A DNA stretch of 32,173 nucleotides from Acidobacteriaceae bacterium (GTDB taxonomy: Bacteria; Acidobacteriota; Terriglobia; Terriglobales; Acidobacteriaceae): assembly GCA_025352065.1 (NCBI GenBank), contig JANXUC010000015.1:1-32173 (forward strand). The letters are read 5' to 3'. Positions within the stretch are counted from its first letter, which is position 1; the number at the start of each line of letters is the position of its first letter. Shown piece after piece: positions 10,222 through 26,066 of the stretch. The position numbers and the translations under genes are program-made. Under the pieces are notes generated by a model. That model searched no databases. It was not told where the DNA came from and saw nothing but the letters and a program-made list of their open reading frames with translations.

Positions 10222-13200
10222 TTAAGCTTCGATGATCTTGCGTCGGACCTTACGCAGTTTGTCCTGGCTGGCTTTTTGGAATTTCTCTTGTTCTTCACTG
10301 CGGTTCCGTTGTTCAGCCTCATCGAGTTTTGCGAACAAATACGCAATCGTGCCCCCGGGATTGCCGGAGATCAGGTCGAGCAGCAATTCGTAGGTGTTTG
10401 CCATCCGGGCGACGGTGCTCGCATCAAACAGATTCGGATTGTAGACCCACAGGGTGGATGGATCCGTTTCGGGAGTATTGATGAACAAGACAAGGTCGAA
10501 GCGCGACGAGCTTCCGACGCCAAGCGGACCCAGTTTTAAGTCTCCAAACCCCGTTGCCAGTTGCGGAGTGTTCTGCATCACAAACAAAATCTGAACCAGC
10601 GGGTTGTGGGTCAAGCTGCGGTCTGGGCGCAGCTCCTCAATGAGCTTGTCAAACGGAATGTCCTGGTGGGCCATGGCCTCGAGCGACCCTTCCCGAACCT
10701 GCTGAAAGAAGTCGATGAAGGTGGCGTCAGGAGTGAAACGTGCTCGCATGGGCAGTAGATTCACAAAGAATCCGATCATCTTTTCGGATTCCATCTGATT
10801 GCGGTTAGCCAAGTCTGTACCGATCACGACGTCGTCTTTTCCGGATAGTCTTCCAAGGAAGAGTTGGAAGGCCGCCAGCAGGGTCATGAAGAAAGTTCCT
10901 CGCTGGGTCCGACTTAGATCCTTTAGGCTCTTGACGAGAATTTCTGGAATTGGCTGCCGATGTATTGCGCCCCAGAATTGTTCCGTCTCTTTACGCGGAC
11001 GGTCCGTAGGAAGTTCGAGCACCGGCGGCGCGCCTTCCAACTGCAGACGCCAGTAGGCCAGTTGCTTGTCCAGCACTTCGCCGGAAAGGAATTCACGTTG
11101 CCACGCTGCGTAGTCCGCATATTGGAAATCGAGGTCGGGCAAGAGCGCCGGCCTGCCTTCTAGGTGCGCTTCGTAAAGAGTAGCCAACTCCTGCGAGAGC
11201 ACACCCAGCGACCAACGGTCGCTGATAATGTGGTGCATGTTCAGGATAAGCGCGTGATCTTCTTCCCCAATTTTGATTAGCGCAGGGCGTAATAGCGGAC
11301 CGGTTAGAAGGTTGAAGGGCTTCTGGATTTCTTCCGTCGCTAAGCGTCGGGCCTCAGCTTCGCGCTCCGCAATCGTTGGGAATGGGCTAGCGTCTAGATG
11401 GGTCCAGTGCAATTCGACCTGCGGTACGACGATTTGCACAGGCTCATCGTTGTGCATTTGGAACTTGGTTCGCAAAGATTCATGGCGGCGAACAACCTCG
11501 TCCAGGCTCTTCTCCAAGGCTCGTGGGTTGAGCTGGCCGGTCATACGTGTGACGTAGGCGATGTTGTAAAGCGGGTTGCCAGGTTCCAGTTGGTCCAGAA
11601 ACCAGAGCCGCTGCTGTGAAAAAGACACTGGCAGAGGCTTGTTGCGTGGCACGCGTCGCATGGGCGGAGCTTCTAAGCCACTTTTCTGTCCGACAGAAGT
11701 GTCTACCCGTTGAGCCAGGCCGGCAATCGTTGGAGCCTCAAAAAGAGTGCGAACGGGTAGGTCGGTGCGGAAGGCTTGTCGCACGCGTGAGATTACTTGT
11801 GTGGCCAACAGCGAGTGGCCCCCTAATTCAAAAAAGTCATCAGTCGGTCCAATTTGCGATAGCTTGAGAACCTCCGCCCAAATCCCTGTAATTATCTCCT
11901 CCGTGGGTGTGCGGGTGCCTCCGTCCGGCTTAGCGGCAGCTCCTATTCCGTAGTCGGGTACTGGCAGCCGTTTGCGGTCTACCTTTCCGTTGGGCGTGAG
12001 TGGCATCGCATCCATTTCTACGAAGGTCGTCGGGATCATATAGTCCGGGAGAGATTTTTTGAGATGGAGGCGAGCTTCAGCCAGCGACAACTGGGAACCT
12101 GGGACGAGTGTCCAGTAAGCCACCAGACGCGGTTGCCCCGGTGTATCTTCGCGTGCCATGACCAAACAATGCTGTACGCTGCAGTGGTGCTGCAGCGCTG
12201 TTTCAATTTCCCCAAGCTCGATGCGGAAGCCACGCAGTTTAACCTGATTGTCGATGCGTCCGATATATTGCAGCTGGCCATCAGCTTGCCATCTCGCAAG
12301 ATCGCCGGTGCGGTAAAGCCGGCGCGTGTCGCCGAAAGAACGGCTCGGTGAGGAGATGCCCGAGGGAGCGCTGGATGAGAATGGATCAGCGACAAACTTC
12401 TCCGCCGTGAGTTCGGGACGGTGGAAATAGCCGCGGGCCAGGCCGAGCCCGCCAATGTAAAGCTCTCCGGGAACGCCAGTCGGCGCGAGTTGCCGATGCG
12501 CGTCGAGCACATAAAACTGAGTGTTTGCGATCGGCCGTCCAATTGGCGCTACGGCGTTCAGATTGCTGGCAACGCGATATACCGAGGACCAAATCGTAGT
12601 TTCCGTCGGTCCGTACATATTCCATAAGGAATCGCAACGTGTGCGCAGCGAATTCGCCAGCTCCGCCGGAAGCGCCTCGCCGCCGCAGAGAATTTTCAGG
12701 TCCGGCCGTCCCGTCCAGCCGCTGTCGACCAGCATGCGCCAGGTAGCGGGCGTCGCTTGCATGACAGTAGCCGCTGACTTTTCGAGCAGCGCGCTGAGTT
12801 GGTGTGCGTCGCCCGCCTGTTCGCGGCTCGCCAGCACCAGGCGGGCACCCGTGATCAGTGGCAGATAAATTTCCAAGCCAGCAATATCGAATGACAGAGT
12901 TGTCACGCCCAGCAGCGTGTCGCGACTTTCCAAGCCTGGTTCGCGCTGCATCGAAAGAAGAAAATTGGTTAACGCCAAATGCTCGATTTCAACACCCTTA
13001 GGTTGGCCTGTCGATCCCGAAGTGTAAAGAAGATACGCAGCATCCTTGGGTGCCGGGTAGGAAGTGAGTGGTTCACTGCCGAGTTTGGCAATTTGCGGCC
13101 ACTCGACGTCAAGACTCAGTACCTGCGTGTTCGATTCCGTAGGGGACACCGGCAAGTTGCTCAATAGACTCGACTGTGTGATCAGCAATGGAACCCGCGC

Positions 13201-16200
13201 ATCTTGGACGATGAACGCGCTGCGGTCCTTGGGGTAGCCCGGATCGAGCGGGAGATAAGCTGCGCCAGCTTTTAGAACAGCGAGCAGAGATACGACCAGA
13301 TCGAGCGAACGGTCGAGGCAGAGCGCAACGTGCGTCTCCCGGCCAGCGCCGCGTTCTTGCAGGTAGCGGGCAAGTTGATTAGACCGCGCATCGAGCTCTG
13401 CAAATGTGAGTTGCTCTGCACCAAACTGAACGGCAATCGCCTGCGGCGTACGAGCGGCTTGCGCCGAGAAAAGATGGGGTAACGTTTGACTGAGCGGGAA
13501 GTCTTCCGCTGTGTCGTTGTGTTCAACTATTATTTGCTGCCGCTCACTCTCAGTCAGCAGCGGAAGTTGCGACAGCTTCAGTTCCGGATTCGCTACAGCA
13601 GCTTGCAACAGGACGCGAAAGTGCTGCAATAAGCGTTCCATCGTGGCCGGATCGAATAGATCCACGCTGTATTCGAGGCGGCTCTCAAGGCCTTTCTGCG
13701 TGTCATGCATTGAGAGATACAAATCGCCTTTGACGGTCTTGAAACCGCTGGGAACGGGCTTCAGGCGAAGCCCTTTAAGCTGCAGTGCTTCTGCCGGTGC
13801 GTTCTGCAGGACGAAGAAAGCCTGGACGAGCGGACTGTGCCGCAGGCTGCGTTCCGGATTCAACTCTTCGACAAGCTTCTCAAACGGCATGTCCTGGTTG
13901 GCGTAGGCGCCCAGCGCAGTTTCTTTGGCCCGCTCAATCATTTCTGCGAAGCTGGGGTCGCCCGACAGGCGCGTGCGCAGGGGCAATGTATTCAGGAAGA
14001 ACCCAATGACTCTTTCAAGATCGGGATGCGTGCGGTTGGCGATTGCGGTGCCGACGACGATATCGTCCTGCCCGCTGTGCCGTGACAGCAGTGCCTGGAA
14101 GCCTGCGAGCAACGTCATGAACAACGTTGCTCCGTGCTTGCGGCCCAACTGGGTGAGTTGGTCGGTAAGGGCAAGGGGCAACGTCAGGTACGCGACTTCT
14201 CCGTGAGAGTTTTCTGTTGCCTGGCGCGGCCGATCCGTAGGCAGCTCAAGCACCGGAGGAATATCTTTCAGTTTCTCTTTCCAGTAGCCAAGTTGCTTTT
14301 CCAGAACAGGTCCGTGTAGACACTCACGCTGCCACTCCGAGTAGTCGGCATATTGCAAAGGCAATGGGGGAAGGTCGGCAGCTTTGCCTTCGATCGTAGC
14401 CTCGTATAGATTCGCAAGTTCCTGAGACAGAACGCCCATGGACCAGCGATCGCTTATGATGTGGTGGACGTTCAGCAGCAAGTAGGAATCCTCGTCGCTA
14501 ACACGCACGAGTATGGAGCGCATGAGGGGAACTTGCGCCAGGTCGAAGGGTCGGTTGGCATCCTCGCCAATCACGCGCATGGCTTCGGCGTCGCGCTCGT
14601 GCTCCGGAAGGTTGGAGACGTCAACTCTCCGGAACGGAACCCGCACCGAATCATGAATGACTTGAACTGGCTGATCAGCGACTGTGTTAAACACGGTTCG
14701 CAAACCTTCGTGGCGGACGGCAATGATATTCAAACTAGCCTCAATGGCATCGGCATTCACGGCGCCAGTGATCTTAAGCGTCCACGGAATGTTGTAAGCC
14801 GGGTTGCCAGGATCGAGTTGATCGAGGAACCAAATCCGTTGCTGCGCGGACGATGCGGGCAAAGATGTTTCGCGGGAAACCCGCCGGATGGGCGGAACGT
14901 CCGAGCCGTGTTTTGCCGCCTGAATTCGCGCAGCCAGTATTTCCAGCTTCGGTGATTCGAACATTGCTTTCAGCGGAAGCTCGACTTCAAAAGCCTGACG
15001 CAAACGCGAGATGACTTGCGCTGCCAGCAAAGAGTGTCCGCCCAGCGTAAAGAAGTCACTCGTTACGCTGACTTGATCTAGATGAAGCACTTCGCTCCAG
15101 ATTGCTGCCACCTTTTCTTCGATGGGGTTGCGCGGAGCGACGTAGTTCTCGCTGGCATCCTTCTTGTATTCCGGCGGGGGCAGAGCCTTGCGGTCAATCT
15201 TTCCATTCGGCGTGAGCGGAAATGATTCAAGCACGACGAATGCCGTGGGCACCATAAAATCGGGCAGGCTTCGCTGTAAATGGAGCACCAAATTGTCTGG
15301 GTTCGGATCTACGCCTTCGTGCGGAACCAAATATGCGACCAACCGCTTAAGTCCAGGCTGGTCTTCACGTGCCAATACCAGGCATTGACGCACACTCGGA
15401 TCTTTCGCAAGCACTGCTTCAATTTCTCCTAGCTCAATGCGGAAGCCGCGTAGCTTAACTTGATGGTCGATGCGGCCAAGATAGTTAATGTTACCGTCCG
15501 GAAGCCAGCGGCATAGGTCGCCGGTTTTGTACATGCGTGAAGGGTTCTGTTTGCTAAACGGGTTTGCGACAAAACGTTCCGCCGTGAGATCGGTGCGGCC
15601 GAAGTAGCCACGCGCCAGCCCTTCTCCCGCAAGGTAGAGCTCGCCCGGGACGCCAACCGGAAGCGGCTGGAGATTCTTGTCGAGAATGTAGCACTGCTCA
15701 TTCGCAATGGGCTTGCCGATTGTTACGCGCCCCCCTTGCGGCACATGAGTCCAGGTGGAATACCCGCTCTCGGTGGGCCCGTACAGGTTGTGAACATTCT
15801 TGACGGTGCCGGTGCGATAGATCTCTTCGACCAGGGAGTCGGGAAGCGCCTCACCGGCCAGCACCACGGTTTGCAGGGCTTCCGGAAGCGCGTTCATGCG
15901 AACGAGTTCCGCAATGGCCGAGGGCACCGTATTGATCAGCGTGACTTCATCTTTCGCTGGCAGGGTTGGCAAGTATAGAGGGTTTTCCGCGAGAATGATC
16001 TTTCCGCCAGCCGCCGCGGTGATGAACATCTCGAACGTCGACATGTCGAAGCCGATAGAAGTGCAGAGGAGCACGCCAGCAAGTTCAGCGAGTGTAAAGA
16101 CCGTCTGTGCCCACTGCACGAAAGTGACGTTGTTGTGATGCTCCAGAGCAACGCCTTTCGGCCTGCCGGTCGAGCCTGAAGTGAACAGCACATACGCAAG

Positions 16201-19200
16201 ATTGTCGGGCGTGACCTGCGTTTGCGGATTCTCGCGTGACTCTTGCGAGATCTTTCCCCAGTCGGAATCAACGCACACGAATTTCGCGCGGTTGTTTTCC
16301 AACTTCGCAGCTAGCGATTGCTGTGTGAGAACAATCGGGGCGTGCGAATCCTCAAGAATCGCAGCCAACCGCTCGTGAGGGTAGCTGGGATCGAGCGGGA
16401 CATAGGCGGCGCCCGATTTCAGCACGCCAAAGATTGCGGGTACGAGGTCTGGCGTTCTTTCCATGAAGACGCCGATCAGGACATCGGGGCCAGCGCCGAG
16501 TTTGATCAGGTGATGCGCGATTTGGTTGGCACGTTCGTTGAGTTCGCCATACGTCGTCCGTTCTTCCCCGCAAATCAGAGCCGTTGCATCGGGAACGCGC
16601 TGAGCACTCTGCTCCAGCAAATTGTGGATGCAAAGCCTTGGAAAATCGGCTGCAGTACTGTTGAAATCAACCACTACTTTCTGCCGTTCGTCTTCTCCCA
16701 GCATCGGTAGTTGCGATAAATGTCGCTCGGGGTACTCGAGGCAGGATTGCAGCAACGTCTGGAAATGTTGAAGAGCACGGGTAATCGTCGCGTCTTCGAA
16801 CAGGTCCGTGGCGTACTCCACGTAGAGCAGATAGCCTTGGGGGACTTCGTTCACAAACCAGGACATGTCGAACATCGAAGTGTCGGTGTAAACCGGAACG
16901 CGCTCCAGCTTCAGACCGGTCAGTTCCATTGCCTGCATCGGTGCATTCTGCAAAGCGAACATAACCTGGAAGACCGGACTATGGCTCAGGCTGCGTTCCG
17001 GCTGGAGTTCCTCGACCAAGCGTTCGAACGGAATATCCTGGTGCGCATAGGCGCGCAGGCAAACTTCTTTAGTGCGCGCCATCAGTTCGCGGAATGTCGG
17101 ATCGCCGGAGACGTCTCCGCGTAACGCAAGCGTGTTGACAAAAAACCCGATCAACGGCTCGATTTCGGCGAAACTTCGATTTGCAATCGGAGAGCCAACA
17201 ATAACGTCTTCCTGTCCGGCGTAGCGCGAAAGCAGCGTTTGGAACGCAGAGAGCAGCGTCATAAACAGGGTCACGCCTTCGCTTTGACTCAACGTCGTTA
17301 GCTTCTCAATAAGTTCGTGCGAGAGAATTACAGACTGTGTGGCGCCGCGAACGGAGAGTACTGCCGGACGCGAATGGTCGGTCGGCAACTCCAGAATTGT
17401 GGGTACCCCGGCGAGCTGTTCTTTCCAATAATCGAGCTGTTTCCGCAGAACTTCGCCTTGCAACCATTCCCGCTGCCAAACAGCAAAATCGCAATACTGT
17501 ATCGCCAGCTCCGGCCACGGCGAAGGCACGCCGTGAACGAACGCCTCGTAGTGCGCAGCCAACTCTTCGGCCAAAACGCCCATAGACCAACGGTCGCTCA
17601 CGATATGGTGCATTGTTAGAAACAGTTGATAGTGGCCGAGTTCCAGCACGATGAGCTGTGCCCTTAGCAACGGTCCAGAGGAAAGATCAAAAGGACGTTG
17701 TGCTTCTTGCTCTGCGAGAGTGCGTGCTTGCGCCTCACGTTGTGGCTCAGAAAGGTAGGTTAGGTCTGTGACGGGTAGTGGGAGTTCCAGTTGGTTCGCG
17801 ATAACCTGAACCGGTTCGCTGCCATCCAAAGCAAAACTCGTTCGCAACGTGGCGTGGCGTTCAACGATCTTGTTGATGGCGCGGTGCAGGGCTGGAACGT
17901 TCAGCTTTCCTCGCATGCGTAACACGCGAGGCATGTTGTAAGACGGGCTGCCAGGCTCGAGCTGGTCCAAGAACCACAGTCTTTGCTGCGCAAAGCTCAG
18001 GGGAAGTTGATCGCGTTTCTCGGATCGCTTGATCTGCGGCGCGAGTAGCTCGCCGCCTGATCGTTGCGCCGCTTCGACGCGTTGCGCGAATTCGGCGACG
18101 GTCGGTGCTTCGAACATAGCCCGCAGCGGAAGTTCGACCCCGAGTGTTCGGCGCACTCGTGCCACGACCTGTGTTGCGAGAACTGAATGCCCCCCGAGCT
18201 CAAAGAAGTTGTCGTGAATGCCGACTCGATCTAGTTTCAGGACCTGAGCCCAAGCGCCAGCGATCATTTCCTCTGTAGGAGTTCTAGGAGCGACGAACTG
18301 CTGCGTGCGAGCGCTTGATCGCCCCGCTTCCATTGCTCGGGAAATACTGGCTATATCGAAAAGCTTGGACGCAACGCGGTTGACGACCTGGTTCGCGATC
18401 TGAGGGGCGCCAGTGGGCTCCGTAGTCTGATCGAAAGCCCAGACATTGTTCAGAAATCGTGGGACCTCTTCTGGATTGCCCGGAAGCGTAAGGCACAGGA
18501 CTTCTGGGCATTCCGTTCGAGTTTCAGCGCATTCTCGTTCGGAGCTGCTCACAAAAACAAAACTGCCCAGACTAAATTGAAGCTCGTCCGCGAGTTCGCG
18601 CAACCCGGTTGGTATTGATTTCACGCCCAAGCGTTGAGTGATAATGTGCTCGGGCCGAAGCGCCATGTTCGGATTCTGCGCGAACACAGCGTTGACATCG
18701 GCTTCGGCACTCTTGCTGCACAGGCAAAGAAGTTTTCCAGTCTCGCTCTGGCGGAGAAAGAACTTCTGCAAGGCCCGTCGCGGCGCATTCACAGGGATCG
18801 AGTCCGGCGGTCGGCTAGCGCAGGTGTCCTGCCAAAGCGTGTTGTCGCAATCCAGCACAACGACTTGTTTCGGAGCGGTTCGGAGAGAAAACATCCGTCG
18901 CGCTAGAGTAGTCCCCAGCGCGGTGAAGTATGCGGGCGTATACGGGATATGCCCTAGCTTGTCCGAGTATTCGTCCTCGTAATCTTCGACCGGATAGAGA
19001 CCGAACGCCTCGCCCGACGGAATAACGTGAACACCGGGCAACTCGCTCATGGCGGAGAGAAGCGTTTGCTCCGTTCGCGACAAAAACTCAGCCCAGTTCG
19101 CGTTTGCCGTTAGCTTTCGTTCCGACGGACAGATGCAGAGTAAGAATGGAGAGTGCGCCTTATGTCCGGCTGCCTGCAAAGCACCGATGAATTCGCGGAC

Positions 19201-20943
19201 GCTGGCCTCGATCCTACTTTGAGCTACCTGGATAGTTTGTTTTTCGTCGGAGCCTTGCCAGTCGCCTAGCCGTAACAAAACAATGTTGAAACCATCAGAA
19301 TTGCGGGCAACCATGCTTGCCGGATCAAGCAATTGCTGGAAGACTTGGTTGTAGGGCGCGAACTGGGCCTTAGCGCGTAATCCCAGCTCTTTAATCCAGA
19401 ATGCGAGGGGTGCTTCCAACGGTTCTGCGGTGAACGTCGCAGTAATCGCAATTGTCTGCACCTGTTCTCGTTTAGAAGCGGCAGCCGATTGCTCCATCAA
19501 TTCCGGAAGAAGCGGAATATCCTGAATGCGAGTTTGCGGGGATGTGACAAATCGTTCAAGAATAAGAACATACATCTGCAGCAAGTTCTCAATTGTTCCA
19601 GGATCAAACAAATCTTCGTTGTATTCACAATCGATCGTCAGCTGGCCGTTCGTTTCCTCCGCGACAAAACGCAAGTCGAGGAACGCGACTCCATAGTCCA
19701 TCTGGAGCAACCGGGCTTCCAATTGATCGGAGCGAAAGATCATTTCAGGATAGTTCTGTACCAGCAGCGCCACGTTGTAGAGGGGGTTGGCGCTCAGTGA
19801 CCGCTGCGGCTTGACGGCCTCGACAATTTTTTCGAAAGGGCAAGTTTGATGCGCCAGGCTTTCGAAAACGCTTTGCCTGGTTCTGCGCAGGAATTCAACA
19901 ACAGATTCTTCCGGCGTCACCTGTGAACGCAAAGGGAGGAAGTTCATGAAACAGCCAATCAAGTTTTCAATTTCCGCCTGGTCGCGATTCGCGCTCACAG
20001 TGCCGACAATCTGATCCTGCTGCCCGCTCCATCGCGCAAGCAAAACGTTCAGGCCTGCCAGCAGCGCGGCGAACAGCGTGGTCGCTTCTGCCTGGCAGAA
20101 GGCCTTGAGTTGGATCGTAAGCTCCGCGCTCATACCCTTTGAGCGATGGCTGCCCTGGTAATTCATCGCCTCCGGGCGAGTGCGATCCGTAGGAAGTGCA
20201 ATTGATGAAGGTGCACCTTCCAATTGTTTACGCCAAAATTCCAGTTCTTTTTCAAGTACCGCGCCCTGCATCCATTCTTGCTGCCAAACGGCATAATCGG
20301 CGTAATGGACGGCGAGTTCCCCGAGTGAAGCAGATCCTCCTCGCATCTGCGCGCCGTAGGACTCCCCGAGCTCTCGAAAAAAAATGCCGCCCGTCCAACC
20401 ATCGCTAATGATGTGGTGCATGGTGAGTGCCAGCACGTGTTCATCCGCTGCAAAGCGGAGCAGATGCGCCCGCAATAATGGCCCGTTCACAAGATCAAAT
20501 GGAGTGCGACTAAACTGCAGCACTTTTTTCTCGGTGGTAGCGTGGCGCTGCTCGGGGGGAGTTGAGCTCAAATCCGTAGATGTGAGCTTGAGCTTGGATT
20601 CCGCTGCGATCGCTTGGCGAGGTTGTCCACTCTCATCCGCCGGAAAAGTTGTGCGCAGAATTTGATGCCGTTGAACAATCGCGTTCAACGCCGCTTCCAA
20701 AGCAGCAATGTCGAGTGTTCCCCGCAGTAGCAGCGCTCGCGGGACGTTGTAGAGATAGCTTTCCGGATCAAGTTGCTGGATCAGCCACATCCGCTGTTGC
20801 GCGAAGGACAGCAGAGCGCTGTCGCAATTCATTCGCGGACGGATCGGAGGGGCAATCGCGGGCGCCGGGCGTTTCAGCATCCGCTCCAGCAAAGCCTGCT
20901 TGGCCGGGCTTAAGTTCGCAGCCTTCGTCCGGTCATCCGACAT
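10222..20943 (-). CDS. Nonribosomal peptide synthetase, C-FkbH/HAD-T-C-A-T-C-A-T-C
   Basis: Multimodular NRPS of about 3,570 residues. Domain order (numbered from a GTG two codons before the preferred ATG): C1 45-480 (HHIISDG 178-184); FkbH-like N-domain 500-690 plus HAD domain 695-835 (LDCDNT at 699-704); carrier T1 (ELGGHS, Ser922); C2 980-1420 (HHIVSDR 1114-1120); A1 1450-1925 (FTSGSTGRPKGV); T2 (Ser1973); C3 2025-2465 (HHIISDR 2162-2168); A2 2490-2995 (YTSGSTGQPKGV); T3 (Ser3046); C4 3100-3535 (HHIISDR 3239-3245); charged tail 3540-3575. By alignment to GrsA the A2 pocket reads DILQLGMIWK, almost the glycine code. A1 reads DMFNVALYSK, partly like an alanine code but unassigned. There is no thioesterase, reductase or epimerase. 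C1 at the N-terminus implies a donor loaded elsewhere, plausibly the free ACP. HAD motif IV is altered (VFVSSSERE for VFxDDNPxE). The ATG at 20943 has a GAGAG-rich Shine-Dalgarno. Confidence 0.95.
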   Translation of the reverse strand: MSDDRTKAANLSPAKQALLERMLKRPAPAIAPPIRPRMNCDSALLSFAQQRMWLIQQLDPESYLYNVPRALLLRGTLDIAALEAALNAIVQRHQILRTTFPADESGQPRQAIAAESKLKLTSTDLSSTPPEQRHATTEKKVLQFSRTPFDLVNGPLLRAHLLRFAADEHVLALTMHHIISDGWTGGIFFRELGESYGAQMRGGSASLGELAVHYADYAVWQQEWMQGAVLEKELEFWRKQLEGAPSSIALPTDRTRPEAMNYQGSHRSKGMSAELTIQLKAFCQAEATTLFAALLAGLNVLLARWSGQQDQIVGTVSANRDQAEIENLIGCFMNFLPLRSQVTPEESVVEFLRRTRQSVFESLAHQTCPFEKIVEAVKPQRSLSANPLYNVALLVQNYPEMIFRSDQLEARLLQMDYGVAFLDLRFVAEETNGQLTIDCEYNEDLFDPGTIENLLQMYVLILERFVTSPQTRIQDIPLLPELMEQSAAASKREQVQTIAITATFTAEPLEAPLAFWIKELGLRAKAQFAPYNQVFQQLLDPASMVARNSDGFNIVLLRLGDWQGSDEKQTIQVAQSRIEASVREFIGALQAAGHKAHSPFLLCICPSERKLTANANWAEFLSRTEQTLLSAMSELPGVHVIPSGEAFGLYPVEDYEDEYSDKLGHIPYTPAYFTALGTTLARRMFSLRTAPKQVVVLDCDNTLWQDTCASRPPDSIPVNAPRRALQKFFLRQSETGKLLCLCSKSAEADVNAVFAQNPNMALRPEHIITQRLGVKSIPTGLRELADELQFSLGSFVFVSSSERECAETRTECPEVLCLTLPGNPEEVPRFLNNVWAFDQTTEPTGAPQIANQVVNRVASKLFDIASISRAMEAGRSSARTQQFVAPRTPTEEMIAGAWAQVLKLDRVGIHDNFFELGGHSVLATQVVARVRRTLGVELPLRAMFEAPTVAEFAQRVEAAQRSGGELLAPQIKRSEKRDQLPLSFAQQRLWFLDQLEPGSPSYNMPRVLRMRGKLNVPALHRAINKIVERHATLRTSFALDGSEPVQVIANQLELPLPVTDLTYLSEPQREAQARTLAEQEAQRPFDLSSGPLLRAQLIVLELGHYQLFLTMHHIVSDRWSMGVLAEELAAHYEAFVHGVPSPWPELAIQYCDFAVWQREWLQGEVLRKQLDYWKEQLAGVPTILELPTDHSRPAVLSVRGATQSVILSHELIEKLTTLSQSEGVTLFMTLLSAFQTLLSRYAGQEDVIVGSPIANRSFAEIEPLIGFFVNTLALRGDVSGDPTFRELMARTKEVCLRAYAHQDIPFERLVEELQPERSLSHSPVFQVMFALQNAPMQAMELTGLKLERVPVYTDTSMFDMSWFVNEVPQGYLLYVEYATDLFEDATITRALQHFQTLLQSCLEYPERHLSQLPMLGEDERQKVVVDFNSTAADFPRLCIHNLLEQSAQRVPDATALICGEERTTYGELNERANQIAHHLIKLGAGPDVLIGVFMERTPDLVPAIFGVLKSGAAYVPLDPSYPHERLAAILEDSHAPIVLTQQSLAAKLENNRAKFVCVDSDWGKISQESRENPQTQVTPDNLAYVLFTSGSTGRPKGVALEHHNNVTFVQWAQTVFTLAELAGVLLCTSIGFDMSTFEMFITAAAGGKIILAENPLYLPTLPAKDEVTLINTVPSAIAELVRMNALPEALQTVVLAGEALPDSLVEEIYRTGTVKNVHNLYGPTESGYSTWTHVPQGGRVTIGKPIANEQCYILDKNLQPLPVGVPGELYLAGEGLARGYFGRTDLTAERFVANPFSKQNPSRMYKTGDLCRWLPDGNINYLGRIDHQVKLRGFRIELGEIEAVLAKDPSVRQCLVLAREDQPGLKRLVAYLVPHEGVDPNPDNLVLHLQRSLPDFMVPTAFVVLESFPLTPNGKIDRKALPPPEYKKDASENYVAPRNPIEEKVAAIWSEVLHLDQVSVTSDFFTLGGHSLLAAQVISRLRQAFEVELPLKAMFESPKLEILAARIQAAKHGSDVPPIRRVSRETSLPASSAQQRIWFLDQLDPGNPAYNIPWTLKITGAVNADAIEASLNIIAVRHEGLRTVFNTVADQPVQVIHDSVRVPFRRVDVSNLPEHERDAEAMRVIGEDANRPFDLAQVPLMRSILVRVSDEDSYLLLNVHHIISDRWSMGVLSQELANLYEATIEGKAADLPPLPLQYADYSEWQRECLHGPVLEKQLGYWKEKLKDIPPVLELPTDRPRQATENSHGEVAYLTLPLALTDQLTQLGRKHGATLFMTLLAGFQALLSRHSGQDDIVVGTAIANRTHPDLERVIGFFLNTLPLRTRLSGDPSFAEMIERAKETALGAYANQDMPFEKLVEELNPERSLRHSPLVQAFFVLQNAPAEALQLKGLRLKPVPSGFKTVKGDLYLSMHDTQKGLESRLEYSVDLFDPATMERLLQHFRVLLQAAVANPELKLSQLPLLTESERQQIIVEHNDTAEDFPLSQTLPHLFSAQAARTPQAIAVQFGAEQLTFAELDARSNQLARYLQERGAGRETHVALCLDRSLDLVVSLLAVLKAGAAYLPLDPGYPKDRSAFIVQDARVPLLITQSSLLSNLPVSPTESNTQVLSLDVEWPQIAKLGSEPLTSYPAPKDAAYLLYTSGSTGQPKGVEIEHLALTNFLLSMQREPGLESRDTLLGVTTLSFDIAGLEIYLPLITGARLVLASREQAGDAHQLSALLEKSAATVMQATPATWRMLVDSGWTGRPDLKILCGGEALPAELANSLRTRCDSLWNMYGPTETTIWSSVYRVASNLNAVAPIGRPIANTQFYVLDAHRQLAPTGVPGELYIGGLGLARGYFHRPELTAEKFVADPFSSSAPSGISSPSRSFGDTRRLYRTGDLARWQADGQLQYIGRIDNQVKLRGFRIELGEIETALQHHCSVQHCLVMAREDTPGQPRLVAYWTLVPGSQLSLAEARLHLKKSLPDYMIPTTFVEMDAMPLTPNGKVDRKRLPVPDYGIGAAAKPDGGTRTPTEEIITGIWAEVLKLSQIGPTDDFFELGGHSLLATQVISRVRQAFRTDLPVRTLFEAPTIAGLAQRVDTSVGQKSGLEAPPMRRVPRNKPLPVSFSQQRLWFLDQLEPGNPLYNIAYVTRMTGQLNPRALEKSLDEVVRRHESLRTKFQMHNDEPVQIVVPQVELHWTHLDASPFPTIAEREAEARRLATEEIQKPFNLLTGPLLRPALIKIGEEDHALILNMHHIISDRWSLGVLSQELATLYEAHLEGRPALLPDLDFQYADYAAWQREFLSGEVLDKQLAYWRLQLEGAPPVLELPTDRPRKETEQFWGAIHRQPIPEILVKSLKDLSRTQRGTFFMTLLAAFQLFLGRLSGKDDVVIGTDLANRNQMESEKMIGFFVNLLPMRARFTPDATFIDFFQQVREGSLEAMAHQDIPFDKLIEELRPDRSLTHNPLVQILFVMQNTPQLATGFGDLKLGPLGVGSSSRFDLVLFINTPETDPSTLWVYNPNLFDASTVARMANTYELLLDLISGNPGGTIAYLFAKLDEAEQRNRSEEQEKFQKASQDKLRKVRRKIIEA

Positions 20944-21057
20944 TGTCACTCTCTCTTTTCAGCTCGGACCGCCGCTGTGCAGCCCGCTCAACTCGTAGGC
21001 CTAAGGTCTGAAGAAGTGGACTTTCGTCCTGCGCTCAATGTTGGGGGGATAAATAGA

Positions 21058-21175: not shown

Positions 21176-22237
21176 TTATGCTTTGCTGCGAAGCTCTTTC
21201 TTGGTCTCGGCGATTTTCTGGACGACAGCCTGTGCCATGGCTTGCGGCGGCTTGTCGGAGTTGAAAATCAGCCCCCCAAGCACAATGCCGTAGGGGACCT
21301 TCGCAGCTTCGTACGGAGCCATAATGCTGGCCAGGTTCGACATGCTCCCGCCACCAGTCAGCATGGGCAGCGTCTTTGCAATCGGCAGTTCGTCCGTCAG
21401 CACTTTCGCGATTTCCAGCTCTTCTGCTTTCGTAGCGCGGTAGTAGTGCGTCTCCCCAATCGGACTGATAAACGCGTCGCATCCAAACAGGCGATGCAGT
21501 TGGCCATACATTCTGTGGCTGAAGCTGGTTGCGTAGATGCCGTGCATCGACAGGTGACCCAGCATCGGGACTTTGGTGTGCTTCCGAAGCTCGTGCAAGG
21601 CCGGGAACCCCACAATCGTGGGATTCATCAGCACCATGCCAAGTTTCTCCTGCTGCAATACCTTGTGGAACGCACTTATGTCGTCGAGGTTGACGGCGGG
21701 AATATAGCAGCTGTTTCGCGAGGCCAATTCAAGGCGAGTCTGCAGTGACAGATTGGCGAAGTCACCCTGCATCTCATCGTCTTTCGCCGCGTGAAATCCA
21801 CCGGATACCGGTTGACGCATCCGCTGTTCCAAATCTCCGACAGAGCCCTCCAGGTCGAGAGAGGGCTTGATGATCGCGACCAGCAAAGGGGGTTCCGCAG
21901 CGCCGAATCGTTCCAAAACGGATGCGGCTCCGAAGGCAGGTCCATGAAACCAGGTATAAACTTCCGCGGGCAGCGTCAGATCCTCGAAGCGAGCTTTGCC
22001 AAAGGCCCTCATAAAGGGAATTTCGCCAAACAGCATCGCCATGAACTGGCTCACGCTACGATCAAAAATGTTTAAAGGAAAGCGAAGAAGAACTCTGAAC
22101 GTGGAGGCCGACACCTTGTCGACATCAATCTTCGAAGAAGGCAAGTCTTTTAGCCGCTGAAGATCATCGATAAATTTGTGTAACGCCTTTTCGTCGGCGC
22201 CTTCGGCCAGCACGGTGAGTTCAATATTGTTCGCCAT
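21176..22237 (-). CDS. RuBisCO-like protein (form IV-type RLP)
   Basis: The 353-residue sequence follows the RuBisCO large-subunit barrel: FHGPAFG (RuBisCO FQGPPHG), LLVAIIKPSLDL (LLGCTIKPKLGL), AKDDE (TKDDE), MLGHLSMHG (LLHIHRAMHA) and LTGGGSMSN (ASGGIH). Retained residues are Lys124 (=K175), the carbamylation lysine Lys152 (=K201), Asp154 and Glu155 (=D203, E204) and His228 (=H294). Changed are K177 (Ser126), R295 (Leu), H327 and the loop-6 K334, which carboxylation requires. It therefore cannot be a CO2-fixing RuBisCO. Known RLPs enolise, isomerise or decarboxylate sugar-phosphate-like compounds (DK-MTP-1-P enolase, apionate-pathway decarboxylase). It starts four bases after the ligase stop, with AAGG upstream, so it is co-transcribed with carrier-protein genes. 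That setting suggests a biosynthetic, not catabolic, job. Confidence 0.85.
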   Translation of the reverse strand: MANNIELTVLAEGADEKALHKFIDDLQRLKDLPSSKIDVDKVSASTFRVLLRFPLNIFDRSVSQFMAMLFGEIPFMRAFGKARFEDLTLPAEVYTWFHGPAFGAASVLERFGAAEPPLLVAIIKPSLDLEGSVGDLEQRMRQPVSGGFHAAKDDEMQGDFANLSLQTRLELASRNSCYIPAVNLDDISAFHKVLQQEKLGMVLMNPTIVGFPALHELRKHTKVPMLGHLSMHGIYATSFSHRMYGQLHRLFGCDAFISPIGETHYYRATKAEELEIAKVLTDELPIAKTLPMLTGGGSMSNLASIMAPYEAAKVPYGIVLGGLIFNSDKPPQAMAQAVVQKIAETKKELRSKA

Positions 22238-22241
22238 ATGG

Positions 22242-23879
22242 TTAGCCTTGCGACCCCAGCACCCACTTCAGGGTTTCCATGTCCTCGCTGTTCGCCAAAC
22301 GCTTCTCGTAATAATCGCGCAGCAAGCGATGCAGAATTTTTTTCGTCGGGCCCTTAGGAAGCTCGGGCATATCTCCAAGGCGATTGGTAATAACAATCCG
22401 TTTTGGTTGCTTGAAGCGTGCCAGCGACTTCGCACAGTAAGCCAGTAGCTCAGGTTCCGAGCTGGCTGAATTGTCTTTCAATCGGGCGAAAGCACAAATT
22501 TCCTGACCCAAAATTGGATCGTCAACTCCAATCACAGCACATTCCGCCACATTCGCGTGTTGAGCGAGAACGTTCTCGATCTCAGCCGGGTAGATCTTCT
22601 CGCCACCTTTTACGATTAAGTCGTCTTTGCGGCTGCGGAAGTAGTAGTCGCCATTGGAATCGCGCAGGCCGTAGTCGCCCGAGTGGTACCAGCCTCCGCG
22701 GAACTTCATCTCTTGCAGCTCTGGAAGTTTGTGATATCCGATTGCAACATTCGCGCCACGAATGCAGATTTCGCCTTCCGTCCCGTCCGGCACTTCCACA
22801 TCGTTTTCGTCGACCACCTTCATGTCGCTGATCGGAAGCACGGTTCCTACGGAACCAAGTTTTCGCTGGTCGGCGGGAAAACGATTGAAACAGGAGTAAG
22901 AAGTGGCCTCCGTCGATCCAAAGCCTTCAAAAATCGGAATGCCAAATTTGGCCTCGAACTTTTGCGCCAGACTCAGCGGCAAAAGCTGGCCTCCACAAAT
23001 AATTCCCTGTAGACGTCCGGGGCGCCCTTCAAAGCCAAGCGCCAAAATTGCCGCCAGAACCGACGGCATCACACTGGTGTGCGTACATTGGTAGCGGTCG
23101 ACGAGCGCCCAGAAAGATCGCAGGCTCGCCTTGGGATCAATCATGACAACAGATCCTCCGCGATATAGCGTGGTGGTCAACGAAACGACCAGACCATTGT
23201 TGTGGAACAAGGGCAGGATGCACAGGCTCCGCGTGGCTGGGCTGAACTCAAACCATTCCGCCATCCCCATACCATCTATGATGAAGTTCATGTGACTCAG
23301 GATTACGCCTTTGGGGAAGCCGGTTGTTCCGGATGTGTAAATGATCGCTGCAGGCGTGGTAGGCGGTACATCCGGGAGCGCAGCCTCCACCGCGGCGATA
23401 TCCACCTTCGCCATGTCGGCAACATCAGCCAGCGGGTAGAATTTCATCGTGGGCATCTCGGCCTGCAGCGGCGCCAGCTTATGCTTCAACTCAGCATCAT
23501 AAAAAACTGCTTCACTGTCGCTGTTTTCGACGATGAAGCGAATTTCCTGCAGCGCCAGGTCCGGATTGATAGGCACAACGTTGATGCCCTGCGATACCGC
23601 TCCAAAAAAGACTGAGAGAAATTCCGGCGTGTTGCGAAAGATTATGGAAATGGTTCCGAAGTCTCGAGTGCGGGTGCGGAGCCACTCGGCTGCCACAATC
23701 GTTAGATCATAGAACTCGCGGTAGGTATATTTGCGGTCGGTTTCCGGAAAAATCAGAAACTCGCGATCGGGGGCTTCTTCCGTCTTAGCCCGCAACAAAT
23801 GCCGGAAGTTCGTATAGAGCAAATCCACCGGCTTGGTGGAATACTGGTAGGGAAGTAGAGGCCAGGATGTTGTTATCAC
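22242..23879 (-). CDS. Acyl-CoA/acyl-ACP synthetase (ANL superfamily AMP ligase)
   Basis: This is a complete 545-residue adenylate-forming ligase. The P-loop is YTSGTTGFPKGV (181-192), the A5 region is GFGSTEATSYSCFN (319-332), A7/A8 reads YHSGDYGL then RSRKDDLIVKGGEKIYPAEI, and the C-terminal lysine is in LPKGPTKK (Lys513). The enzyme activates a carboxylic acid as the adenylate and passes it to a thiol. The gene overlaps the ACP stop by one base (TAGTG) and has AAAGGAA upstream of its GTG, so the two are translationally coupled. This makes the neighbouring carrier protein a likelier acceptor than free CoA. The substrate is not readable from sequence; the adjoining RLP and RpiB genes suggest a small polyhydroxy or sugar-derived acid (inference). 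Confidence 0.9.
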   Translation of the reverse strand: MITTSWPLLPYQYSTKPVDLLYTNFRHLLRAKTEEAPDREFLIFPETDRKYTYREFYDLTIVAAEWLRTRTRDFGTISIIFRNTPEFLSVFFGAVSQGINVVPINPDLALQEIRFIVENSDSEAVFYDAELKHKLAPLQAEMPTMKFYPLADVADMAKVDIAAVEAALPDVPPTTPAAIIYTSGTTGFPKGVILSHMNFIIDGMGMAEWFEFSPATRSLCILPLFHNNGLVVSLTTTLYRGGSVVMIDPKASLRSFWALVDRYQCTHTSVMPSVLAAILALGFEGRPGRLQGIICGGQLLPLSLAQKFEAKFGIPIFEGFGSTEATSYSCFNRFPADQRKLGSVGTVLPISDMKVVDENDVEVPDGTEGEICIRGANVAIGYHKLPELQEMKFRGGWYHSGDYGLRDSNGDYYFRSRKDDLIVKGGEKIYPAEIENVLAQHANVAECAVIGVDDPILGQEICAFARLKDNSASSEPELLAYCAKSLARFKQPKRIVITNRLGDMPELPKGPTKKILHRLLRDYYEKRLANSEDMETLKWVLGSQG

Positions 23880-24127
23880 TACCGTGTTCCTTTCTCGAGC
23901 GCGCCCAGCAAATAGCGAACCAGCCGCTCGGCAGAGGTGAGTTTAAAGGCCTCGTCGGCGCTAATCTCGATCCCGAACTTTCTCTCCACCGCACTGAGTA
24001 ACTGCACGTGTTTCAGCGAGTCCCATGCGGGAGCCGTGTACATGCTGGTGGTTTCGTCAAATCGCGGAATCCGGAGCACCTGCTCGGCGATGGGGGCGAG
24101 AGCTGAATATATTTCTTGCGAAGTCAT
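23879..24127 (-). CDS. Free acyl/peptidyl carrier protein
   Basis: This 82-residue carrier protein has the phosphopantetheine site in AWDSLKHVQLL (Ser37), followed by ERKFGIEIS and a helical C-terminus. I prefer the ATG at 24127; an upstream in-frame TTG at 24166 would add 13 residues but has no family support. AAGGA lies somewhat far, about 12 bases before the ATG. The stop shares its last base with the GTG of the acyl-AMP ligase gene. It presumably carries the acyl unit made by the ligase and presents it to the first C domain of the NRPS, or to the FkbH-like acyltransferase domain. Confidence 0.88.
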   Translation of the reverse strand: MTSQEIYSALAPIAEQVLRIPRFDETTSMYTAPAWDSLKHVQLLSAVERKFGIEISADEAFKLTSAERLVRYLLGALEKGTR

Positions 24128-24167
24128 GCGGAAAAAGTGTCCTTCATTTCTGAATAGTCGTTCCAAC

Positions 24168-24866: not shown

Positions 24867-26066
24867 CTAGTGCACAGACTCCGTAAATGCTCCCTCGGAG
24901 GCCTTCTGTTCGAATTTTACGGTCCATGCTTCAGGGGCCGCGGCTACAGCTTGCAGCCGAGACTTGGAAGCTGAAACCGGGAGCACATAGGTTGTTCCGG
25001 GCCCGGCATCCGCTAGCGATTGCAGAAATGCGAGCACCTCCTGGTTCCGCTCACTTGGTCGATATTCAAATATTAGGGTCGTCAGCCCATGCTCAGCGGC
25101 GAACTCGGTTAAAGCGGAAACAACTGCGTACTCCACTTGTTTACCCGATACGCTACAGCTCACTGCGAAGGCATGAATCGACAGCACGTTCTTTTCTGCT
25201 TCCGCTCGGAAGGCAACCAGCGCCGTTACGCCGTAATCGGCCAGGCGGTCCGACACGCTGACCAGCAAGCAATTTCCAGATGCCAGATAGGCATCAATAT
25301 TAGCCTCGGTCAGGTCTCGCTGCTCACCCGTCAAAGAAAAAGTAGCCGCATTGCGCAGGAGACGATCAATGTGCGCGCGATCGCCAGCCAGCGCTGGAAC
25401 CAGCCGAACCTCAACTCGTAACCCCTTTAGATACGCGGAGAGTTGAGTCGAACCGTCCTGTGGCGACGACGCGGCGGTTTGCATCCTCGTCGTGGACTTC
25501 GCTAGCTGCTGCCCCAGAAGTTTCCCAAGCGTATCGAAGGCTTCCTGGGTGAACGGGATTTGTCCCAGGCGGTCTGCGCTGCGGTCTTGGAATTCACTTT
25601 GCGAGAGGGATGTCGGCCATGGCAAGGTTGTGATCTGCGTCACGCTGCGAATGCGCGCTACGAGAAGGTTCGTATAGGTCTGGCAAACGGTCTCGAGTTT
25701 GTGTTTCCCGGAAATCCATCCCAGGGATGGGCACGGCAGGAACCAAACCGGTTTCCCATTTTGGGAAAGGGTTGAGATCTGTTGCACAAACTCGTCCGTG
25801 CGGGCCCGTAGGATCTCCCGAATCGCCTGCGGTGGCATTTCTGCTGGCTTCGACTTCAAAGTATCGCGTAACCAGTCTTCCAGGCGCAGCAGCACGAGGG
25901 TCCCGGCAGCTTGCGCGTCAGGCGCCAAGAGCGATTGGCACATCTGGGCGTACATCGCAAAACGCGGGGGGGTAGGGACGCCCGAGTTCTCCAGCGAGTG
26001 CCGGAGTGACGGCTCGACAGGGCTGCAGGTAAAGCTCGACGCGACTTGGATGAATTCGGTATGCAT
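24867..26066 (-). CDS. FkbH-related protein: N-terminal domain plus GNAT, no HAD
   Basis: The 399-residue protein has the outer two parts of an FkbH-type protein. Residues about 35-190 match the SGNH-like N-domain (LVLLRLEDWLRD, VWFLPCPS, DRLGQIPFTQEAFDTLGKLL). Residues about 212-350 match the C-terminal GNAT-like domain (LRVEVRLV, FSLTGEQRD, SDRLADYGVTALV, FAVSCSVSGKQVEYAVVSAL, FEYRPSERNQEV). The HAD phosphatase domain that normally separates them is missing. The NRPS of this locus carries the complementary pair, N-domain plus HAD, without a GNAT. In classical FkbH the whole protein moves a glyceryl group from 1,3-bisphosphoglycerate to a carrier protein. Here a split arrangement acting on the ACP or T1 is likely. 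It is the first gene of the operon; its ATG lacks a clear Shine-Dalgarno. Confidence 0.75.
   Translation of the reverse strand: MHTEFIQVASSFTCSPVEPSLRHSLENSGVPTPPRFAMYAQMCQSLLAPDAQAAGTLVLLRLEDWLRDTLKSKPAEMPPQAIREILRARTDEFVQQISTLSQNGKPVWFLPCPSLGWISGKHKLETVCQTYTNLLVARIRSVTQITTLPWPTSLSQSEFQDRSADRLGQIPFTQEAFDTLGKLLGQQLAKSTTRMQTAASSPQDGSTQLSAYLKGLRVEVRLVPALAGDRAHIDRLLRNAATFSLTGEQRDLTEANIDAYLASGNCLLVSVSDRLADYGVTALVAFRAEAEKNVLSIHAFAVSCSVSGKQVEYAVVSALTEFAAEHGLTTLIFEYRPSERNQEVLAFLQSLADAGPGTTYVLPVSASKSRLQAVAAAPEAWTVKFEQKASEGAFTESVH

Follow-up and report, generated by a model that had tools for sequence, protein, structure and literature searches.

Introduction

An FkbH segment can replace the A domain between the C and T domains of an NRPS and load glycerate, as two reports describe for vioprolide, cystomanamide and corramycin (PMC8949500, PMC10099666). 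Stand-alone FkbH proteins, which work with a discrete acyl carrier protein (ACP) in the tetronate and methoxymalonate pathways, belong to the same family as the two proteins treated here. In the full-length FkbHs of the relatives studied, an N-domain, a HAD domain and a GNAT domain lie in one chain. In the window (the whole stretch of 32,173 nucleotides that was analysed, from an Acidobacteriaceae bacterium), by contrast, there are two chains, and each of them is incomplete. According to the initial annotation, made from the sequence alone, the FkbH function is split between these two chains. The results described here speak less for the division of a single enzyme than for a module that can no longer load itself and is supplied from another source. 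In a limited literature search, we found no paper on FkbH in the biosynthetic gene clusters of Acidobacteria; this is not a claim that none is in print.

Results

The genes of Table 1 lie in minus-strand order from the gene of the N+GNAT protein through those of the RpiB-type isomerase, the ACP, the AMP ligase and the RuBisCO-like protein (RLP) to the NRPS gene. The intergenic gaps along this order are 9, 79, -1, 4 and 226 bp (the ligase and ACP genes overlap by 1 bp). Thus, an operon is likely. The RLP matches the RuBisCO-like proteins 2qyg (E = 4.1e-19) and 1ykw (E = 5e-17) of the PDB. The isomerase gene sits between the N+GNAT and ACP genes.

Table 1. Positions of the genes of the likely operon and of the FkbH segment of the NRPS
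Feature	Position	Strand	Domains and evidence
N+GNAT protein, 399 aa	24867..26066	-	N-domain ~26051-25515, FkbH-type GNAT ~25439-25017, without HAD
RpiB/LacAB-type sugar-phosphate isomerase, 203 aa	24246..24857	-	PF02502, 91.3 bits
Discrete acyl carrier protein (ACP), 95 aa, TTG start as listed	23879..24166	-	PF00550, 31.9 bits
AMP-forming acyl-CoA/ACP ligase, 545 aa	22242..23879	-	PF00501, 271.1 bits
RuBisCO-like protein (RLP), 353 aa, KDDE motif	21176..22237	-	NF007095, 66.9 bits (cut-off 409); PDB RLP matches
NRPS, 3575 aa, C-[N + degenerate HAD]-PCP-C-A-PCP-C-A-PCP-C	10222..20949	-	Pfam and C-domain placement
NRPS FkbH segment, N-domain (499-692) and degenerate HAD (695-841), then PCP1, without GNAT	18427..19455	-	Custom profiles

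Pfam detected four Condensation, two AMP-binding and three PP-binding stretches in the window NRPS, in which one module has the order C, FkbH segment, T in place of C-A-T. The NRPS terminates in a C domain (10339-11634), and neither a carrier nor a thioesterase follows. On another contig of the window genome (G000:C11, L183:1-7682), further genes of the cluster family are present, namely a C-A-PCP, an ABC transporter pair and the start of a C-domain protein. The transporter pair is 71% identical to that of genome G436, and the C-domain protein is broken by the contig end.

The open reading frame at 24867-26066 (minus strand) had been described as an FkbH N-domain followed by GNAT without HAD, and this description was borne out. 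The FkbH model TIGR01686 (323 positions, HAD then GNAT) covers the protein at profile positions 173-317 only (67 bits, E = 1.6e-18). The C-terminal region therefore matches the GNAT half of the FkbH model, as had been supposed, at a score below the curated whole-domain cut-off of 146.65 bits. HAD models gave no match to the 399-residue protein, and custom profiles placed the N-domain at residues 6-184 and the GNAT at residues 210-350. Pfam, which has no model for either, gave no match to the N+GNAT protein or to the NRPS FkbH segment at E values up to 10. A PDB sequence search with the N+GNAT protein gave no usable relative, and a close-relative scan of the genome contigs confirmed none. The AlphaFold2 model of the protein has a pLDDT of 82.3 and a pTM of 0.50, from a shallow alignment of 7 rows. 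GNAT proteins make up most of its best 50 Foldseek matches in the PDB (best E = 5.3e-6); 3slr ranks 39th, presumably on account of the N-domain. According to this model, the C-terminal half is predicted to have a GNAT fold.

The NRPS had been read as carrying an N-domain and a HAD without GNAT at 18430-19452. The profiles give the same content at 18427-19455; the degeneracy of the HAD had been missed. The segment 18274-19485 is covered by TIGR01686 at profile positions 3-151 (62.8 bits), corresponding to the HAD half, and it scored 26 bits with the HAD-IIIC model TIGR01681, of which the cut-off is 35.75. Neither chain alone reaches the TIGR01686 cut-off. The coverage of this model by the two chains is complementary and the N profiles match both, in agreement with the initial annotation. 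The model of the NRPS N-domain and HAD has a pLDDT of 79.1 and a pTM of 0.73, from a shallow alignment of 5 rows.

Seven HAD positions which we take to be catalytic, with presumed roles for the individual motif residues, are D, D, T, S, K, D and D in 83 of 83 rows with N-domain, HAD and GNAT. Two further rows with HAD and GNAT have DDTSKDD and DDTSKED. In the window NRPS (DDTSISS), the motif I DxDxT and the motif II Ser are kept, the motif III Lys is replaced by Ile and the motif IV Asp-Asp by Ser-Ser. The HAD was detected in four other GNAT-less NRPSs, and these have DDTSASN, DDTTPAR, DDLSISG and DDVSVSA. The HAD of the G072 NRPS escapes detection and was positioned by hand in the alignment; motif I is lost there as well. 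The motif III Lys and the motif IV Asp pair are lost in all six GNAT-less NRPSs. Judging from these residues, the FkbH segment of the window NRPS is probably not catalytically competent, and the HAD of the GNAT-less NRPSs appears to be dead or nearly so.

The HAD identity exceeded that of the N-domain by 13.2 to 22.8 points in the related full FkbHs compared, which comprise all but one (L015) of the 34 full rows from the relevant half of the tree, 33 in number. In the six GNAT-less NRPSs, this difference was +3.8 (window), +6.6, -0.1, +0.5, +3.5 and -16.9. The mean identity of the N-domain was 35.9% in the GNAT-less NRPSs and 37.3% in the full FkbHs. The lowered difference together with the ordinary N-domain identity indicates that the HAD is under relaxed constraint, whereas the N-domain is not.

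The GNAT was compared using 96 rows (83 full FkbHs, 7 N+GNATs and 6 GNAT-less NRPSs, with two HAD-GNAT rows and one fragment excluded). The 83 full FkbHs are the top search matches, not a random sample, and 18 GNAT columns are kept by at least 95% of them. Using the numbering of the G436 segment, Leu384, Asp440, Gly446, Cys469, Glu477 and Asn506 are kept in 7/7 N+GNATs. Five columns are mixed: Ser468 (6/7), Gly443 (4/7), Arg474 (3/7), Leu404 (2/7) and Asn412 (2/7). The remaining seven, Arg400, Gln403, Asn409, Gln410, Arg417, Leu466 and Arg470, are kept in 0/7, so that the N+GNATs do not have the residue set of a full-FkbH GNAT. In the full FkbHs, Arg400, Gln403, Gln410 and Arg470 are each present in 83/83 and Asn409 in 79/83. 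On these residues, the alterations fit a changed donor or substrate, or a loss of activity, and not an unchanged glyceryl transferase. As the seven residues are absent from every N+GNAT, these proteins could be inactive.

Profile searches of the family genomes, both assumed to cover the identical 398 genomes, detected the HAD-less N+GNAT in seven (the window genome, G072, G529, G467, G487, G474 and G436) and the GNAT-less NRPS in six (the window genome, G474, G529, G467, G072 and G520). Both halves are present in five genomes; the hypergeometric P for this overlap is 1.5e-9 on the assumption of independent genomes, which their relatedness contradicts. At most four candidates per genome were scored in the large searches, which makes absences in them weak. 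When 11 key genomes were searched again with every candidate scored, the same seven N+GNATs and the same six GNAT-less NRPSs were obtained; no N+GNAT was found in G520 (65% complete) and no NRPS FkbH segment in G487 (84% complete). GNAT-bearing versions of the NRPS are present in G436, G651, G386 and G528. In samples of the phylum (396 genomes, E 1e-20) and of the class (399 genomes, E 1e-5), the full-length N+GNAT was limited to the window genome and G072, the remaining matches being pieces of longer proteins.

The two halves are located on one contig in the window and in G072, and on separate contigs in G474, G529 and G467. The N+GNAT gene lies next to an NRPS gene in G072, G467 and G487; in the latter two, the genes overlap at the NRPS stop, by 4 bp (G467) and 1 bp (G487). 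The frames of the NRPS and N+GNAT genes are open; in G072 and G529, the one stop recorded in each N+GNAT falls at the match end, where the listed reading frame ends too. Because the two chains are complementary, both have an N-domain and both occur in five genomes, a functional link between them is likely. The co-occurrence may reflect the shared ancestry of one gene-cluster family.

The loci contain 172 FkbH-like reading frames, of which 99 remained after copies were removed and 95 were used in the N-domain tree. In this tree, the N+GNATs group in a single clade (96/93), separate from the NRPS N-domains, and the GNAT-less NRPSs lie among GNAT-bearing FkbHs. The full-length row nearest to the N+GNAT clade is that of G222 (L015; 92/90), on a long branch. 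The separate clade indicates that the pair did not arise from the cutting of one gene; recent gene fission was also rejected on the ground that both halves keep an N-domain. The two halves lost different domains, each in a lineage of its own. GNAT may have been lost from the NRPSs in one event or in several; a GNAT-bearing row of G651 lies among the tree forks concerned.

In the window genome, TIGR01686 at E 0.01 matched three places: the N+GNAT protein, the NRPS segment and a full-length FkbH (G000:C35:13128-14108, 313.8 bits). On that contig (L036:6406-9988), the full-length FkbH, an ACP-like reading frame and an MBOAT acyltransferase lie in a row, and no NRPS was found beside the FkbH in the 16 kb examined. 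The initial annotation regarded a full-length FkbH in the same locus as evidence against the split. No such gene was found within the window; unsplit versions occur in relatives, and this weighs against the split. A single G072 locus encodes an NRPS whose HAD is dead, an N+GNAT from a divergently transcribed gene (36% identity to the window protein) and an intact FkbH-PCP of 668 residues.

The G436 NRPS has an intact full N-HAD-GNAT, and its N-HAD and C2 are 51% and 66% identical, respectively, to those of the window NRPS. The N+GNAT of G436, on another contig, coexists with this intact FkbH NRPS; the N+GNAT thus does not need a crippled NRPS. In G467, an FkbH-PCP of 689 residues lies on a contig other than that of its N+GNAT. 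The ABC transporter of this contig shares 73% identity with the one next to the G436 NRPS and 65% with the one next to the G474 NRPS. The FkbH-PCP adjoins a B12/radical-SAM protein (G467:C225, L088:9243-12949).

The genes that could supply a precursor differ among the loci. The gene after that of the N+GNAT in G529 (L081:185-1675) encodes a fusion of a RuBisCO-like domain (PF00016, 85.4 bits) with an ACP. This domain is 25% identical to the window RLP, and both keep KDDE; the ACP half is 54% identical to the window ACP. The RLP was rejected as a constant partner, being present in 3 of 11 genomes. At E 1e-8, no homologue of the window RLP was found in G474, G436, G487 or G467, so that the set of precursor genes varies. 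In G072, the RLP lies on a contig of 33.5 kb, the first 18 kb of which gave no NRPS or N+GNAT match. Downstream of the G436 N+GNAT lie the genes of an AMP ligase, a PLP decarboxylase-type protein and a cupin-8 protein. G474 has a gene set of the same type, with the ligase broken across contigs C128 and C8, which we infer to adjoin. These differing precursor genes indicate that the loaded unit probably differs between loci. An AMP ligase gene precedes PCP-C-[N-HAD]-PCP in G529, whereas in G520 two PCPs precede the module and no ligase was found up to the contig end.

Discussion

In the initial annotation, the two chains share the FkbH function. In such a true split, the NRPS HAD and the GNAT in trans would jointly load glycerate from 1,3-bisphosphoglycerate onto PCP1, which would suit the complementarity, the co-occurrence and the motif I DxDxT and motif II Ser of the window HAD. 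The reassembled FkbH would, however, need a HAD that works without Lys and Asp-Asp, as these residues are lost in 6/6 NRPSs and motif I too in G072. Residues of the full-FkbH GNAT, among them Arg400, Gln403, Asn409, Gln410 and Arg470, are lost in 7/7 N+GNATs. In addition, full FkbH-PCPs coexist with the halves in G072 (in the same locus) and G467, and G436 combines an unsplit NRPS FkbH with a separate N+GNAT. These results speak against a shared function. A two-chain, reassembled glyceryl loader is unlikely, and the true split is the least probable of the readings considered here.

We tentatively favour the explanation that a former self-loading C-FkbH-PCP module is now loaded in trans, with the N+GNAT passing on to PCP1 a unit bound to another carrier protein. 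The module C1-[N-HAD]-PCP1 would descend from a self-loading C-FkbH-PCP and would have lost the GNAT and the HAD catalysis, so that the N-domain and the pseudo-HAD scaffold are left as a landing site. The N+GNAT would dock there in trans, perhaps via paired N-domains, and may then move the unit onto PCP1. The putative donor is the stand-alone FkbH-PCP in G072 and G467, and an ACP served by an RLP in the window and G529, with the ligase in addition in the window. Loading in trans is consistent with the complementary TIGR01686 coverage, the co-occurrence in five genomes and the close gene spacing. It is also consistent with the HAD residues, lost in 6/6 GNAT-less NRPSs and kept in 83/83 full FkbHs, with the relaxed HAD beside an ordinary N-domain and with the six GNAT residues kept in 7/7 N+GNATs. 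Candidate carriers are present, namely the window ACP, the RLP-ACP fusion of G529 and the FkbH-PCPs. On the other hand, the N+GNATs lack seven conserved residues and could be inactive, and G436 has an N+GNAT beside an intact, unsplit FkbH NRPS. The precursor genes vary, the halves are on different contigs in G474, G529, G467 and G436, and the co-occurrence may stem from shared ancestry. A more specific form of loading in trans, in which a pseudo-FkbH dock and the N+GNAT transferase handle a unit made on the ACP from sugar-phosphate chemistry by the RpiB-type isomerase and the RLP, is rather unlikely.

The strongest counter-reading is that the N+GNAT loads or modifies a unit on the discrete ACP, which would be the last acceptor for the terminal C domain, and is unrelated to module 1. 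The NRPS ends in a C domain without a later module, the NRPSs of G467 and G487 end in A-PCP-C with the N+GNAT directly after, the ACP, ligase and RLP lie between the N+GNAT and the NRPS in the window, and G436 retains its N+GNAT alongside an intact FkbH NRPS. This reading leaves unexplained why GNAT-less, HAD-dead NRPSs co-occur with the N+GNAT in five genomes, and an ACP of the window type was not found adjoining the N+GNAT in G467 or G487; we regard it as possible, though not probable. A tailoring role, in which the N+GNAT would acylate the released peptide or a free precursor, is doubtful. The predicted GNAT fold and the occurrence with an intact FkbH NRPS in G436 would agree with such a role, but the FkbH N-domain is kept, whereas ordinary tailoring GNATs presumably have none, and in G072, G467 and G487 the N+GNAT and NRPS genes are neighbours. 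More doubtful again is that both proteins are decaying relics of a lost glycerate loading and that the module is skipped. Residues are lost in both halves and the replacements vary among genomes, as would be expected for relics; against this, the frames are open, the NRPS N-domain is ordinarily conserved and six GNAT columns are kept in 7/7 N+GNATs.

In these loci, an NRPS loading module has lost its own catalysis and one domain, while the genomes concerned retain a domain of the missing type in a trans protein. This is a tractable case of a change from cis to trans loading in assembly lines, and it indicates that an FkbH annotation alone is an unsafe basis for predicting glycerate. RLPs are placed beside carrier proteins here, once in the same chain; to our knowledge, no function has been described for RuBisCO-like proteins in such a position. 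If the more specific form of loading in trans is true, with a unit made by the isomerase and the RLP, the loading logic would be new and the RuBisCO fold would act on substrates bound to a carrier.

In systems of the vicenistatin VinK type, a starter unit on a discrete ACP is combined with a trans-acyltransferase of a different fold. The proposal for the window shares their logic of assembling the unit on its own carrier before passing it on, as a functional analogy only. The best structural match of the NRPS N-domain and HAD model is the N-terminal part of BF1531 of Bacteroides fragilis (PDB 3slr; Foldseek E = 3.8e-16, TMq 0.68). According to its PDB title, that part has a phosphatase domain, whereas motifs III and IV are gone from the window HAD. 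The G467 pair of FkbH-PCP and B12/radical-SAM protein recalls the glycerate C-methylation proposed for corramycin (PMC10099666). The G529 order of an AMP ligase gene and PCP-C-[N-HAD]-PCP resembles the FAAL-ACP-C-HAD-T of glycerate-loading lines. The window module is similar to the C-FkbH-T modules of vioprolide, cystomanamide and corramycin in that the FkbH segment lies between C and T. It may differ from them in that the chain has no GNAT, and it differs in that the HAD is without the motif III and IV residues and a separate N+GNAT protein is present.
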